From a bacterium (GTDB taxonomy: Bacteria > Vulcanimicrobiota > Vulcanimicrobiia > Vulcanimicrobiales > Vulcanimicrobiaceae), in NCBI GenBank assembly GCA_021790935.1, contig JAJYFL010000015.1, positions 1 through 59,779 of the forward strand: a stretch of DNA of 59,779 nt. The letters run 5' to 3'. The first letter of the stretch is position 1. Every line of letters begins with the position of its first letter. Below the pieces are notes generated by a model, which did not search any database, had not been told where the DNA came from, and saw nothing but the letters and a program-made list of their open reading frames with translations. The position numbers and the translations under genes are program-made. Shown here one piece after another: positions 45,134 to 57,257 of the stretch.

Positions 45134-46390
45134 TTATGCAGCGCTGCGACTCCAGGCGATGGCCGACTCGTCGACCGGACCGAGCACGCACAGGCCCAGG
45201 TTGCGCTCGGTCAGCAGTTCGGATGCGAGCTCCCGGACCTCCTCGGCGCTGACGGCGTCGATGCGCTCCTCGATCTCTTCGGTCGTCAGCTCGCGGCCCA
45301 GCGAGAACTCGCTACGGCCCAGCCGAATCATTCGGCTGGACGTGGACTCGAGGGAGAGCGTCAAGTTCCCTTTGATGTGCTCCTTCGCCAGACGAAGTTC
45401 GCCGTCGCTCACCCGGCGATCGCGTAGATGCGCGAACTGCTCGCCGATAACGTCGATGCACTCCTGAACGTTTTGCGGCGAGGCGCCGGCGAACACGCCG
45501 AACAGACCGGCGCCCCGGTAACCGGCCTGAAATGAATAGACCGTGTAGACGAGCCCGCGCTTCTCCCGTATCTCCTGAAAAAGGCGGCTCGACATGCCGC
45601 CGCCCAGGATCGTATCCAGCACCGAGAGCGCGTAGCGGCGGTCGTCGCGCACCGAGAGCCCGCGCGTCCCAAGGATCATATACGCCTGTTCGCTGTCCTT
45701 ATAGCGAAAGAGCGATGCGGGTTTGGCCTGCGGTGTCTCCGGCTCCGGCAACTCGCACGCGCCGCGGTACTCCGCCAGATGCCCGCCGAAGAGCGAGACG
45801 ACGTCGTCGTGTTCCACGTTCCCGGCCGCGGCCACGACGATCGCATTGGGTGCGTAGCGGCGTCGCATGTGATCGCGAAGATCGTCCGGCGTCACGCGCG
45901 CGACCGTCTCCGCGAAGCCGATCGTCGGCGCGCCCAGATTGCTGCCCTGCCACATCGTTTGCAGGAAGAGATCGTGGATCAGCTCGTCGGGCGAATCGTC
46001 GTACATCTTGATCTCTTCGAGTACGACGTTCTGCTCCTTGGCGAGCTCCTGCGCGTTGAAGGTCGAGTTGAGAAACATATCCGAGAGCATGTCGGCAGCC
46101 AAAGGCACGTGCCGGTCGATGACCTTCGCGTAGTAACAGGTGGTCTCTTTATCCGTGAACGCGTTGAGGTTCCCGCCGACGCCATCCATCTCTTCGGCGA
46201 TGGCTCGCGCCGTACGCCGCTGCGTGCCTTTGAAGAGCATGTGTTCGACCAGATGCGAGATCCCACGCCGATCCGCGGTTTCGGCCGCCGAACCGACGTC
46301 CGCCCAAATGCCCACGCAGGCCGAACGGAACGCCGGCATCGATTCGGTGATGACGCGAACGCCGTTGGCGAGCGTCGTCTTGCGATACAT
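45134..46390 (-). CDS. M16 family zinc peptidase (processing-protease type)
   Basis: 418 aa. The inverted zinc motif HLVEHMLFKGT (HxxEH) with the distal Glu in NVVLEEIKMYDDSPDE defines an active pitrilysin-type peptidase. Also ILGGGMSSRLFQEIREKRGLVYTVYS and the second M16 domain. Length fits the single-chain bacterial MPP-like group. Cytoplasmic, no signal peptide. Starts directly after the secreted-protein stop. Confidence 0.93.
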   Translation of the reverse strand: MYRKTTLANGVRVITESMPAFRSACVGIWADVGSAAETADRRGISHLVEHMLFKGTQRRTARAIAEEMDGVGGNLNAFTDKETTCYYAKVIDRHVPLAADMLSDMFLNSTFNAQELAKEQNVVLEEIKMYDDSPDELIHDLFLQTMWQGSNLGAPTIGFAETVARVTPDDLRDHMRRRYAPNAIVVAAAGNVEHDDVVSLFGGHLAEYRGACELPEPETPQAKPASLFRYKDSEQAYMILGTRGLSVRDDRRYALSVLDTILGGGMSSRLFQEIREKRGLVYTVYSFQAGYRGAGLFGVFAGASPQNVQECIDVIGEQFAHLRDRRVSDGELRLAKEHIKGNLTLSLESTSSRMIRLGRSEFSLGRELTTEEIEERIDAVSAEEVRELASELLTERNLGLCVLGPVDESAIAWSRSAA

Positions 46391-47158
46391 CTACCGCATC
46401 ACTTTAAAAGCCGAGCCGGCCCACTCCTCGTCCCAGTAGACGTTCGTTCCGTCGAGCATTCGTGCCGTCATCGACGAGGCGCTCTCGCCCCGGCGGACGG
46501 TAATCGTGAAGACATTGCGGCTCGTCGGCACGGCCTTGTCGCCCGAGACCACCGCCCCCTTGCGCACGGGTATCGGAATCTGGGCCCAAACGTCGACCTC
46601 GCCGACCGGCGCTGCCGCGAAGGTCCGCTCGATCAGGGCACGCACCTCTGCGATGAACTGCAGGCGCCCGATCCGCCGGTGAAACTTGACGCCGGAGATC
46701 CGCAGGCCCGCGACCTCGTGGCTGCCGACGCCGTCGGCGTAGACGTTGAGCACCTGGGCCGGCCACTCCGTCGTGAAGAGCGCCCGGCCGATGGCCGTGG
46801 CCGACGCCCGGCGGTTACCCGATGCGCGGGCATCGGCGTCGAGCGTCGCGATCGTGGGCGCAACGACGGGACCGAGCGGCCTAGGCGCCGCGTAGACCGG
46901 CGAGCATACGAACGCCGAGGAGAGCACGGCCGCGAGGATGGCAGCGGCCGCTCCGGGCCATCCGCTCCTAGGAGGCTGTCGGAGTTGAGCCGTTTTCGGA
47001 TTTGGCGCCGAATTTTGTTCGGAGACGAGGCGCGAAGAAGGAGCGAAGCCGTAGCTTCGTGACTGATGAGCAACGAAGTATTCGGGCAAAAGGCGGCCCA
47101 AAGATGGAAACGTGCTTAACTCCGACAGTCTCCTAGTAACTCTGCGCAAAATAGGCAC
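46391..47158 (-). CDS. Secreted protein with MITE-encoded N-terminal insertion (255 aa)
   Basis: GTG 47158 lies within the proS 3' end. Residues 1-8 (MPILRRVT) are followed by 55 codons from the MITE, then SGWPGAAAAILAAVLSSAFVC and SPVYAAP. Removing the MITE joins the basic start to the hydrophobic core and restores a normal signal peptide. The mature domain (GRLQFIAEVRALIERTF, EVDVWAQIPIPVRKG, NVFTITVRRGES, ending GSAFKVMR) is an unrecognised secreted domain. With the insertion, export may be altered; an in-frame GTG inside the hydrophobic region is a fallback start. Confidence 0.65.
   Translation of the reverse strand: MPILRRVTRRLSELSTFPSLGRLLPEYFVAHQSRSYGFAPSSRLVSEQNSAPNPKTAQLRQPPRSGWPGAAAAILAAVLSSAFVCSPVYAAPRPLGPVVAPTIATLDADARASGNRRASATAIGRALFTTEWPAQVLNVYADGVGSHEVAGLRISGVKFHRRIGRLQFIAEVRALIERTFAAAPVGEVDVWAQIPIPVRKGAVVSGDKAVPTSRNVFTITVRRGESASSMTARMLDGTNVYWDEEWAGSAFKVMR
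46969..47135 (-). mobile_element. MITE-like element, copy 1 (proS/secreted-protein junction)
   Basis: 167 bp from TA to TA. Termini TAGGAGGCTGTCGGAGTT and the inverse of TAGGAGACTGTCGGAGTT form 20-bp terminal inverted repeats flanked by a TA target. Central dyad GAAGC-CGTA-GCTTC. No transposase. Same length as the copy at 56536-56702, which is its reverse complement with a few differences. Confidence 0.88.
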
Positions 47159-48599
47159 TCACTTTCGCTGGCTCGCCGCACGCTACGCAGTGCGTTCCGG
47201 GCGGTTCCTCGAGGGCTCGCGTGTTGCGCGTCGTAGCGCCGGTCTGCCCTTTCACCCGCGCCTCGCACTCGTCGCGGCCGCACCATGGAATATCGATCAT
47301 GCCCGCACGGGAGGTGCAGTATCCCACGAACGTCTCTCGATCGCGCGCGCGCAGCGTGTGCGATTCGAGAAAGGCTCGGGCTTGCCGATAGAGCGAGGCC
47401 TGAACCGCTTCGAGCAGCTCGCGGATGGCGCCCTCGAGGCGATCGAACGCCACGACCGTTCTCGAACCGTCCTCGCCCTTGCGCATGTCGCGCCGCACCA
47501 CGACCGCCGCACCGGCCTCGACGTCCTTCGGTCCGATCTCGACGCGCAGCGGCACGCCGCGCATCTCCCACTCGGTAAACTTCCATCCCGGGGACTGATC
47601 GCGATCGTCCACGCGTACGCGCAGCCCCGCCGCCCGCAATCCGTCAGCCAGTTCGTGTGCCTTGGCGACCGTGTCGCGCCGTTCGCCCTTCACGATGGGC
47701 ACGAAGACCGCCTCGACCGGTGCGAGCTTCGGCGGTATGCGCAAGCCGCGGTCGTCTCCGTGCGTCATGATCACCGCCCCGAGCATGCGCCACGACATAC
47801 CCCACGAGGTGGTGTAGGCGTGTTTGATCTGGCCGTCCGCATCGGCGAACGTGATATCGTAGGCCTTTGCGAAGTTCTGCCCGAGGTCGTGCGAGGTTGC
47901 CGATTGGAGCGCCTTCCCGTCGGGCATCAGCGCTTCGATCGAGAACGTCTCGACCGCTCCCGGAAAACGTTCGCTCGCGCTCTTAGCGCCCGCATAGACC
48001 GGAACGGCCGCGACGTTTTCGGCAAACTCGCGGTACACGTCGAGCATGCGCAGCGTCTCCTCTCGCGCCTCGCGCGCCGATGCGTGCGCCGTGTGCCCCT
48101 CCTGCCAGAGGAACTCCATCGTGCGCAGAAAAGGCCGCGTCGCCTTCTCCCAGCGCACCACGTTCACCCACTGATTGATGAGGACCGGGAGATCGCGATA
48201 CGATTCGATCCACTGCGCGTACATCGTGCCGATCATCGCTTCGGAGGTCGGCCGGATCGCGAGGCGCTCGGCGAGCCGCTCCGCGCCGCCGTGCGTCACC
48301 CACGCCACCTCGGGCGCGAAGCCTTCGACGTGCTCGGCTTCCTTCACGAGCAGACTCTCGGGGATCAGCAGCGGGAAGTAGGCGTTTTCGTGGCCGGTCG
48401 CCTTGAAGCGCTGGTCCAGATGCTTCTGGAGATTCTCCCACATCCCGAAGCCGTAGGGGCGCAGGACGACGCAGCCGCGCACGGGCGAATACGAGATCAG
48501 CTCGGCTTTCAGCGTCACGGCCGTGTACCACGCCGAGAGATCGGCGGATTTCGGCGGGATCTCTTTGAGCGGCGGGCTCTGCGGGGCGGATTGCGACAT
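47133..48599 (-). CDS. proS: Prolyl-tRNA synthetase, archaeal/eukaryotic (type 3) form
   Basis: 488 aa. Charges tRNA-Pro. SADLSAWYTAVTLKAELISY, VRGCVVLRPYGFGMWENLQK, and LAIRPTSEAMIGTMYAQWIE then FLRTMEFLWQEGHTAHA are the class II motifs of this form; the C-terminal domain contains a four-Cys zinc-type set (IPWCGRDECEAR and HCVACGEPA) and ends in the typical terminal Tyr (YFAQSY). No bacterial editing insertion. Start ATG 48597-48599. The TAG stop is TA plus the first base of the MITE. Confidence 0.95.
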   Translation of the reverse strand: MSQSAPQSPPLKEIPPKSADLSAWYTAVTLKAELISYSPVRGCVVLRPYGFGMWENLQKHLDQRFKATGHENAYFPLLIPESLLVKEAEHVEGFAPEVAWVTHGGAERLAERLAIRPTSEAMIGTMYAQWIESYRDLPVLINQWVNVVRWEKATRPFLRTMEFLWQEGHTAHASAREAREETLRMLDVYREFAENVAAVPVYAGAKSASERFPGAVETFSIEALMPDGKALQSATSHDLGQNFAKAYDITFADADGQIKHAYTTSWGMSWRMLGAVIMTHGDDRGLRIPPKLAPVEAVFVPIVKGERRDTVAKAHELADGLRAAGLRVRVDDRDQSPGWKFTEWEMRGVPLRVEIGPKDVEAGAAVVVRRDMRKGEDGSRTVVAFDRLEGAIRELLEAVQASLYRQARAFLESHTLRARDRETFVGYCTSRAGMIDIPWCGRDECEARVKGQTGATTRNTRALEEPPGTHCVACGEPAKVSAYFAQSY

Positions 48600-48687
48600 A
48601 ACCGGCCCACGGTTCGGAGAAAACGCGCGCCCGGCCTCCTCCAAACCACCAGGCTACGGCGGCGCCGCTTTTGAAAGTGCCGGCATT

Positions 48688-56307: not shown

Positions 56308-56535
56308 TCAATCGTACCGTTCGTACGACTCGTACCCGCAGACCAGCCCGACCACCTCTTCCTCGCCGCCGTCGGGCGAGCGCTGCAGGCTCGTCGCTGC
56401 ACGCAGGACGCGCAGGGAACCAAGCCCCACCCACGCGCCGACCGGTGCGAGTACCGAAAACCGCACGCAACGCCCGGCAAGAATCCGGCGAGCTTGCGTC
56501 TCCGGCAGGAGCACCAGATCGGCGGCGGCCGGCAC
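56308..56535 (-). CDS. Small protein between frr and cdsA (75 aa), unknown
   Basis: GTG at 56533-56535 directly abuts MITE copy 2; a GTG inside the MITE would add 8 residues (MLNSDSLL). The peptide has PAAADLVLLPETQARRILAG, PVGAWVGLGSLRVLRAATSL, and ends GLVCGYESYERYD. It looks like a real compact soluble domain, faintly like ASCH-type folds, but no family is assigned. Without the MITE, the GTG would overlap the frr stop (TAGTG) with GGAGG just upstream, so the two genes were probably coupled. Confidence 0.55.
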   Translation of the reverse strand: MPAAADLVLLPETQARRILAGRCVRFSVLAPVGAWVGLGSLRVLRAATSLQRSPDGGEEEVVGLVCGYESYERYD

Positions 56536-56702
56536 TAGGAGGCTGTCGGAGTTAAGCACGTTTTCATCTTTGGGCCGCCTCTTGTCCGAATACTTCGTTG
56601 CTCATCAGTCACGAAGCTACGGCTTCGCTCCTTCTTCGCGCCTCGTCTCCGAACAAGATTCGGCGCCAAATCCGAAAACGGCTCAACTCCGACAGCCTCC
56701 TA
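56536..56702 (+). mobile_element. MITE-like element, copy 2 (frr 3' end)
   Basis: 167 bp from TA to TA, reverse complement of the element at 46969-47135. Terminal inverted repeats TAGGAGGCTGTCGGAGTT at both ends. The last three bases (CTA on plus) are the complement of the frr TAG stop. Confidence 0.88.
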
Positions 56703-57257
56703 TACCTCCATGATCTCTTTCTCTTTGGAGGCGACGATCTGGTCGATCTCCTTCACGTACCGGTCGGTGAGCTTCTGCAACTGCTCCTGTAGGCGCTTGC
56801 CGTCGTCTTCGGTGATGCGATGGTCTTTGAGCTGCGCTTTCAGATCATCGTGCGCTTTATGGCGCACGTTGCGAACGGCGATGCGGCCGTCTTCGGCTTT
56901 CTTCTTCACGACTTTGACGAGATCTCTGCGACGCTCCTCGCTAAGCGGCGGGATACCGAGGCGGATGGCGTTGCCGTCCACGTTCGGCGTCAGGCCGAGA
57001 TCGCTTTTCTCGATGGCCTTCTTGATATCGCCCACCGTATTGCGATCGAACGCGGCGATAACCAGCGTGCGAGGGTCGGGCGTGCTCACGCTCGCGATCT
57101 GCTTGAGCGGGACGGCTGCGCCGTACGCTTCGACGTGGAGACGATCGAGCAGCGCCGGGGTGGCGCGCCCCGTACGTATCGAGGAGAACTCGGCGCGCGT
57201 CGCCTCGACGCATTTGAGCATCTTGCTATCGGCATCTTTGAGTGCGGTATCGGGCAT
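56700..57257 (-). CDS. frr: Ribosome recycling factor
   Basis: 185 aa. Releases ribosomes after termination with EF-G. KMLKCVEATRAEFSSIRTGR, the VEAYGAAVPLKQIASVSTPD segment, and IPPLSEERRRDLVKVVKKKA are conserved; it ends KEKEIMEV, the normal C-terminus. Start ATG 57255-57257. The stop TAG is completed by the MITE's first base. Confidence 0.97.
   Translation of the reverse strand: MPDTALKDADSKMLKCVEATRAEFSSIRTGRATPALLDRLHVEAYGAAVPLKQIASVSTPDPRTLVIAAFDRNTVGDIKKAIEKSDLGLTPNVDGNAIRLGIPPLSEERRRDLVKVVKKKAEDGRIAVRNVRHKAHDDLKAQLKDHRITEDDGKRLQEQLQKLTDRYVKEIDQIVASKEKEIMEV

Follow-up and report, generated by a model that had tools for sequence, protein, structure and literature searches.

On its minus strand the window, the whole stretch of 59,779 nucleotides analysed here, carries the prolyl-tRNA synthetase gene proS (47133..48644), whose longest ORF encodes 503 amino acids with the Pfam domains tRNA-synt_2b, HGTP_anticodon and ProRS-C_1. 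It is followed by an ORF for a probably secreted protein that matches no Pfam or NCBIfam family, and directly downstream of this by a gene for an M16 peptidase (45134..46390, minus strand; Peptidase_M16 and Peptidase_M16_C). In this bacterial family the gene for the probably secreted protein usually lies directly 3' of proS, and the protein (window 46391-46966) is present in 51 of 60 related genomes. At the junction of the two genes sits a mobile element of 167 bp including both copies of a TA dinucleotide (46969..47135, not assigned to a strand), its boundaries being set by 83 copies with their flanks and by an empty site in a sister species. The downstream ORF is open through this element: from a GTG (47156..47158, minus strand) it runs over 46391..47158 and 255 amino acids, and from a TTG that is the probable start it runs over 46391..47149 and 252 amino acids. 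An earlier note on this DNA had described the element as stop-free in the frame of the secreted protein and the net insertion as 165 bp (167 minus the duplicated TA), divisible by three, and the coordinates agree on both points.

The element is palindromic and is bounded by CTAG at 46968-46971 and 47133-47136. Without its two TA copies it measures 163 bp, which leaves no room for a transposase gene, and its net addition of 165 bp corresponds to 55 codons. Both ends carry 16-bp terminal inverted repeats (TIRs; GGAGGCTGTCGGAGTT / AACTCCGACAGTCTCC), one at 46971..46986 on the plus strand and the other at 47118..47133, where it reads GGAGACTGTCGGAGTT on the minus strand. TA flanks both ends in nearly all copies and is the duplicated part of the target, the outer bases differing among copies (TTAG...CTAA, CTAG...CTAT). 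The same genome harbours 22 further copies with 95-99% identity as well as related size classes of 168, 223, 128/131 and 74-97 bp, and matches were obtained in 36 of the 99 genomes of the bacterial family; a second copy within the window (169 bp, 56535..56703, plus strand) is intergenic and shows the TA duplication as CTAG...CTAT. The inferred insertion targets conform to YTAR (CTAG, CTAA, TTAG, TTAA) in 71 of 83 copies, with CTAG in 54. YTAR is the insertion target rule of IS5, and in this respect the element resembles the IS5 type. With its inverted repeats, duplicated target and dispersed near-identical copies, the window element is a non-autonomous, MITE-like mobile element with the TIR GGAGNCTGTCGGAGTT that targets YTAR and duplicates TA.

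A search of this genome and a set of relatives, draft assemblies of a kind that loses such repeats, yielded no PF13358, PF01609 or PF13340 transposase flanked by the element's TIRs; PF01609 occurs at loci devoid of these TIRs, and PF13340 is absent from the draft assembly of this genome. Loci sharing the core of the element in G084 and other genomes were considered as an autonomous partner and dismissed, being further short elements with other ends. Repeats of about 170 bp at L257-L276 (G084, G086, G081 and others) have only the central 50-90 bp in common with the element and differ at their ends, conservation in this comparison being higher in the core than in the inverted repeats. Folded as RNA, the element gives a strong hairpin (-67.7 kcal/mol, z = -6.9), and it has no match near the gathering score of any known RNA family.

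The empty site is found in G002, a sister species of the same genus (locus L010, contig JAJXWN010000157.1) that is about 95% identical on both flanks, and it provides the uninterrupted orthologue that the earlier note had proposed to look for among close relatives. G002 reads GTG CCT ATT TTG CGC AAA GTT ACT AGG GGG ATG ATC CTC (MPILRKVTRGMILAAVLCSAFV; with the following codon GCG included, MPILRKVTRGMILAAVLCSAFVCSPVYA), so joining n-region to h-region in frame (MRKVTRGMILAAVLCSAFV...), and its proS ends in ...SY TAC TAG, as in the window. Excision had been predicted to restore the same continuity in the window, and the window's own flanks, when joined, indeed give MRRVTRSGWPGAAAAILAAVLSSAFV..., or MRRVTRSGWPGAAAAILAAVLSSAFVCSPVYA from the TTG start. 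Beside the insertion point the window is 21 nt longer than G002, which is 7 codons shorter just downstream, and both length differences (21 and 165) are multiples of three.

The proS stop TAG (47135-47133, minus strand) is intact despite the element, as already recorded in the earlier note, and the end of the ProS protein is unaltered at the level of the sequence. TA is the target-site sequence and G the first base of the element, and G002 has TAC TAG at the same place without any element; the stop survives because it was itself the target, TA together with the element's first G rebuilding TAG. The earlier note went further and saw one element specially satisfying two overlapping genes. This we do not uphold: the stop is rebuilt at about half of all copies, so the intactness of proS needs no special property of the window copy, and the open frame is one of six. 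The transcript would gain the strong hairpin right after the proS stop, which may affect processing of the mRNA.

Element sites lie exactly at a gene stop codon in 43 of 83 cases overall. This genome has 47 sites, divided into 26 at stop codons, 6 inside genes and 15 between genes, while 257 genomic CTAG sites used as a control divide into 27, 160 and 70; for the 39 sites in relatives the corresponding figures are 17, 10 and 12. Against the control proportion of 27/257, Fisher tests give p = 5e-11 for this genome (26/47) and p = 2e-6 for the relatives (17/39), values that come from draft genomes and from sites with shared ancestry. Insertion sites were rebuilt by joining the flanks at one target and the 257 controls were handled identically, genes being predicted by a simple caller whose codon model had been trained on the window together with 400 kb of the genome; the same 400-kb sample was the source of the controls. 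The fractions 43/83 and 26/44 leave out three sites of this genome whose ends match the repeat pattern poorly. A second comparison left out gene-internal sites, because selection would remove insertions there, and the excess remains (odds ratio 3.3-4.5, p <= 4e-4 over gene-calling thresholds), although part of it could stem from genes missed in the control.

YTAR contains the stop codons TAG and TAA but not TGA. About 25 of 33 joined-flank queries match continuous, empty sequence in the sister species G001 or G002, and at 13 of the 15 stop-codon sites compared in detail the sister protein terminates at the identical position, on TAG or TAA; the predicted stop codons at element sites are confirmed as native. 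Called CDSs contain 15 of the 83 copies, many of which are close to a gene end. Among the stop-codon sites of this genome, 18 have the element antiparallel to the gene and 8 have it in the gene's own direction, the window case representing the rarer orientation. A broader proposition would be that the family has an intrinsic preference for stop codons, mediated by YTAR and perhaps by something at the 3' ends of genes, that it has a built-in means of entering operons, between or within overlapping genes, which leaves the upstream protein at full length, and that it occasionally creates new N-terminal stretches downstream; in this general form we regard it as a tentative and rather unlikely conjecture.

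The element possesses one open frame of six, the one that coincides with the frame of the downstream ORF and yields a predicted peptide stretch such as LSELSTFPSLGR. Shuffled elements of the same composition average 0.47 open frames out of six, with one or more in 39% of them; given an insertion at the end of proS, about one in six options of orientation and phase keeps the downstream ORF open. Nearly all near-identical copies have a net length of 165 bp, whereas the 168-bp subfamily does not, the multiple-of-three length being a trait of the near-identical subfamily. The frame is closed in the copies of G106, and among divergent copies it is open in 17 of 30 and the net length is a multiple of three in 10 of 30. 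Coding-like selection on the open frame was rejected, as shuffles are often open and divergent subfamilies closed. At L110:997-1893 a further copy of the element is spanned, in the same open frame, by the ORF of an ABC-transporter ATPase. This ORF was discarded as a second N-terminal addition, its upstream GTG being confined to this genome and missing from both sister species; translation probably begins at the ATG that follows the element, and the read-through would be fortuitous.

The C-terminus of ProS, YFAQSY, is conserved, and its Phe codon TTT followed by GCN creates a TTG in the +1 frame. In the window this TTG (47147..47149, minus strand) lies within the proS codons TAT TTT GCG, 17 nt before the end of the proS stop; in relatives the first of these three codons is TAT or TAC. 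Among 31 orthologues of the bacterial family that adjoin proS, the downstream gene shares the frame of the TTG in 18 of 20 genomes with TTT vs 4 of 10 with TTC (Fisher p = 0.007, an optimistic value because the orthologues share ancestry); one further genome has another codon at the Phe position. In five orthologues (L011, L015, L024, L027 and L030) no ATG, GTG or TTG other than this TTG occurs between a point 60 nt ahead of the proS stop and the beginning of the aligned region. A start at the proS stop or shortly past it (about -4 to +21), either additional or sole, occurs in G002, which carries a further in-frame ATG 4 nt after the stop, and in roughly one third of the relatives, and the predicted start position varies within the bacterial family.

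The earlier note had placed the start of the downstream gene at the GTG (47158). A start upstream of the element is indeed probable, but this GTG is probably not it: it is shared with G002 and not general in the bacterial family, and more relatives share the TTG that lies nine bases downstream. In the window the stretch from element to hydrophobic core lacks an in-frame ATG, GTG or TTG; the first to follow, GTG 46927, would remove half of the core, and the two TTGs that the element itself contains are not preceded by a clear ribosome-binding site. An ATG with AGGAG upstream lies just past the element (46959..46961, minus strand), out of frame and with an ORF of only 26 amino acids. We conclude that the downstream gene of the window probably starts at TTG 47149, a choice based on the TTG position that recurs across the orthologues and on hydropathy, and that the start in this genus is most likely located within proS, ahead of the insertion. 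The element would therefore separate the basic n-region from the hydrophobic core, its 55 residues being added between MRRVTR and SGWPGAAAAILAAVLSSAFVCSPVYA; the splitting of n-region from h-region by about 55 residues, first suggested in the earlier note, is in the light of the probable upstream TTG start in relatives probably real.

Both the joined flanks and G002 display the features of a putative Sec signal peptide, with a short basic n-region, a hydrophobic core and an AXA-like cleavage site. The predicted protein has 67 residues before the core with the element vs 12 without it, and the core itself is intact, with a maximal Kyte-Doolittle value of 2.33 in either form. Long n-regions are tolerated in some exported proteins. 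For the extended protein, whose export is a prediction, function and loss of function are both possible. A comparison of the downstream ORF with that of G002 over 183 codons shows 19 base changes that fall in synonymous codons and 10 that fall in non-synonymous ones.

The reading that we favour, and hold to be reasonably probable, is that the MITE-like element inserted recently into the TAG stop codon of proS, where TA and the first G of the element rebuild the stop and leave ProS unchanged. The frame of the next gene overlaps the end of proS, and with its present orientation and phase the element adds the 55 sense codons near the 5' end of that gene; ribosomes starting at the TTG would pass through the element, and the hydrophobic core would then be preceded by about 67 residues rather than about 12. 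Speaking against this reading are the variable start position in the bacterial family, with G002 and roughly one third of the relatives having starts around the proS stop, the AGGAG with its out-of-frame ATG just downstream of the element, where a native start may conceivably have been lost, and the RNA hairpin, which may hinder or process the message. The open frame might on the other hand be a bystander, the 55 codons remaining untranslated and the downstream gene being silenced or using a non-canonical or cryptic start past the element. Such an outcome would fit with a frame that is one of six and commonly open in shuffles, with the probably fortuitous read-through at the ABC-ATPase gene and its private GTG, and with the third of relatives that start at or after the proS stop; but the stretch from element to core offers no in-frame start short of the core-halving GTG 46927, and the 21- and 165-nt differences from G002 both preserve the frame, and we consider it doubtful, though not to be neglected.

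Far less credible is a downstream gene that has recently become a pseudogene, its native AGGAG..ATG (46961) after the proS stop having been disabled by an indel or by the insertion. AGGAGCGGATG does come right after the element, albeit out of frame and with its 26-residue ORF, and this genome and G002 differ by 21 nt at that very spot. Yet the rest of the ORF is intact, with the base changes relative to G002 given above, a pattern that very recent loss would equally show, and a start at the TTG inside proS is shared more widely.

Several known repeat families resemble the window element in part. Pneumococcal BOX repeats overlap 58 genes, and in 36 of these the repeat provides the stop codon at the very 3' end without clear truncation; some BOX repeats carry transcribed ORFs (PMC3049150). 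Like BOX, the present elements are small non-autonomous repeats at gene stops; unlike them, BOX elements are modular and not of the TIR/TA kind, and the parts of that study considered here do not describe stop rebuilding by TA duplication (PMC3049150). The hairpin-forming QMITE1 and QMITE2 of Coxiella comprise several copies that overlap gene 3' ends by 1-3 bp and supply only the stop, as well as in-frame insertions in ORFs; their sequence differs from that of the window element, and the relevant passages list the cases singly and give no excess over target sites (PMC5896051). MITEPsy1, a short MITE of Pseudomonas syringae, uses CTAG or YTAA as insertion sites, which closely resemble the YTAR target found here, but it has a 4-nt duplication, other TIRs and a proposed parent, ISPsy2, and no stop-codon habit is reported in the sections drawn upon (PMC3189936). 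Rickettsia RPEs (Ogata et al., reviewed in PMC10969869) are palindromic elements of about 150 bp that lie in frame in protein-coding genes. According to the account in that review they are frequent within coding sequence and have a conserved peptide (PMC10969869), whereas only 15 of 83 copies of the window family are in called genes and the open frame is not conserved in their divergent copies; an RPE-like habit of in-frame insertion was rejected on these grounds and on the 17/30 open frames and 10/30 multiple-of-three lengths of divergent copies. The window element combines habits of BOX, QMITE and MITEPsy1 and is unlike RPEs. Within the openly licensed literature we found neither a test of stop-codon insertion against target availability nor the rebuilding mechanism.

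By pairing a target motif that contains a stop with ends that rebuild it, a mobile element can be almost harmless, and it can settle exactly at gene ends and even inside gene overlaps. The window offers a rare natural test of how long an N-terminal extension a signal peptide can bear. In annotation, an ORF that runs through such an element calls for a check of relatives before its N-terminus is accepted.

Other arrangements were observed around these genes and sites. In G036 a different, REP-like repeat (L012:1384-1501; RLRMTSGNRVFSFVMLSLSKHA in translation) occupies the corresponding junction, separating proS from the orthologue of the downstream gene. In another family of the same class the domain of the downstream protein sits within ORFs of about 390-530 amino acids. 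Finally, L114 in this genome (G000) and L189 in G001 show the element, through a shared insertion or through independent hits, at apparently the same stop codon in two sister species, the site being empty in G002.
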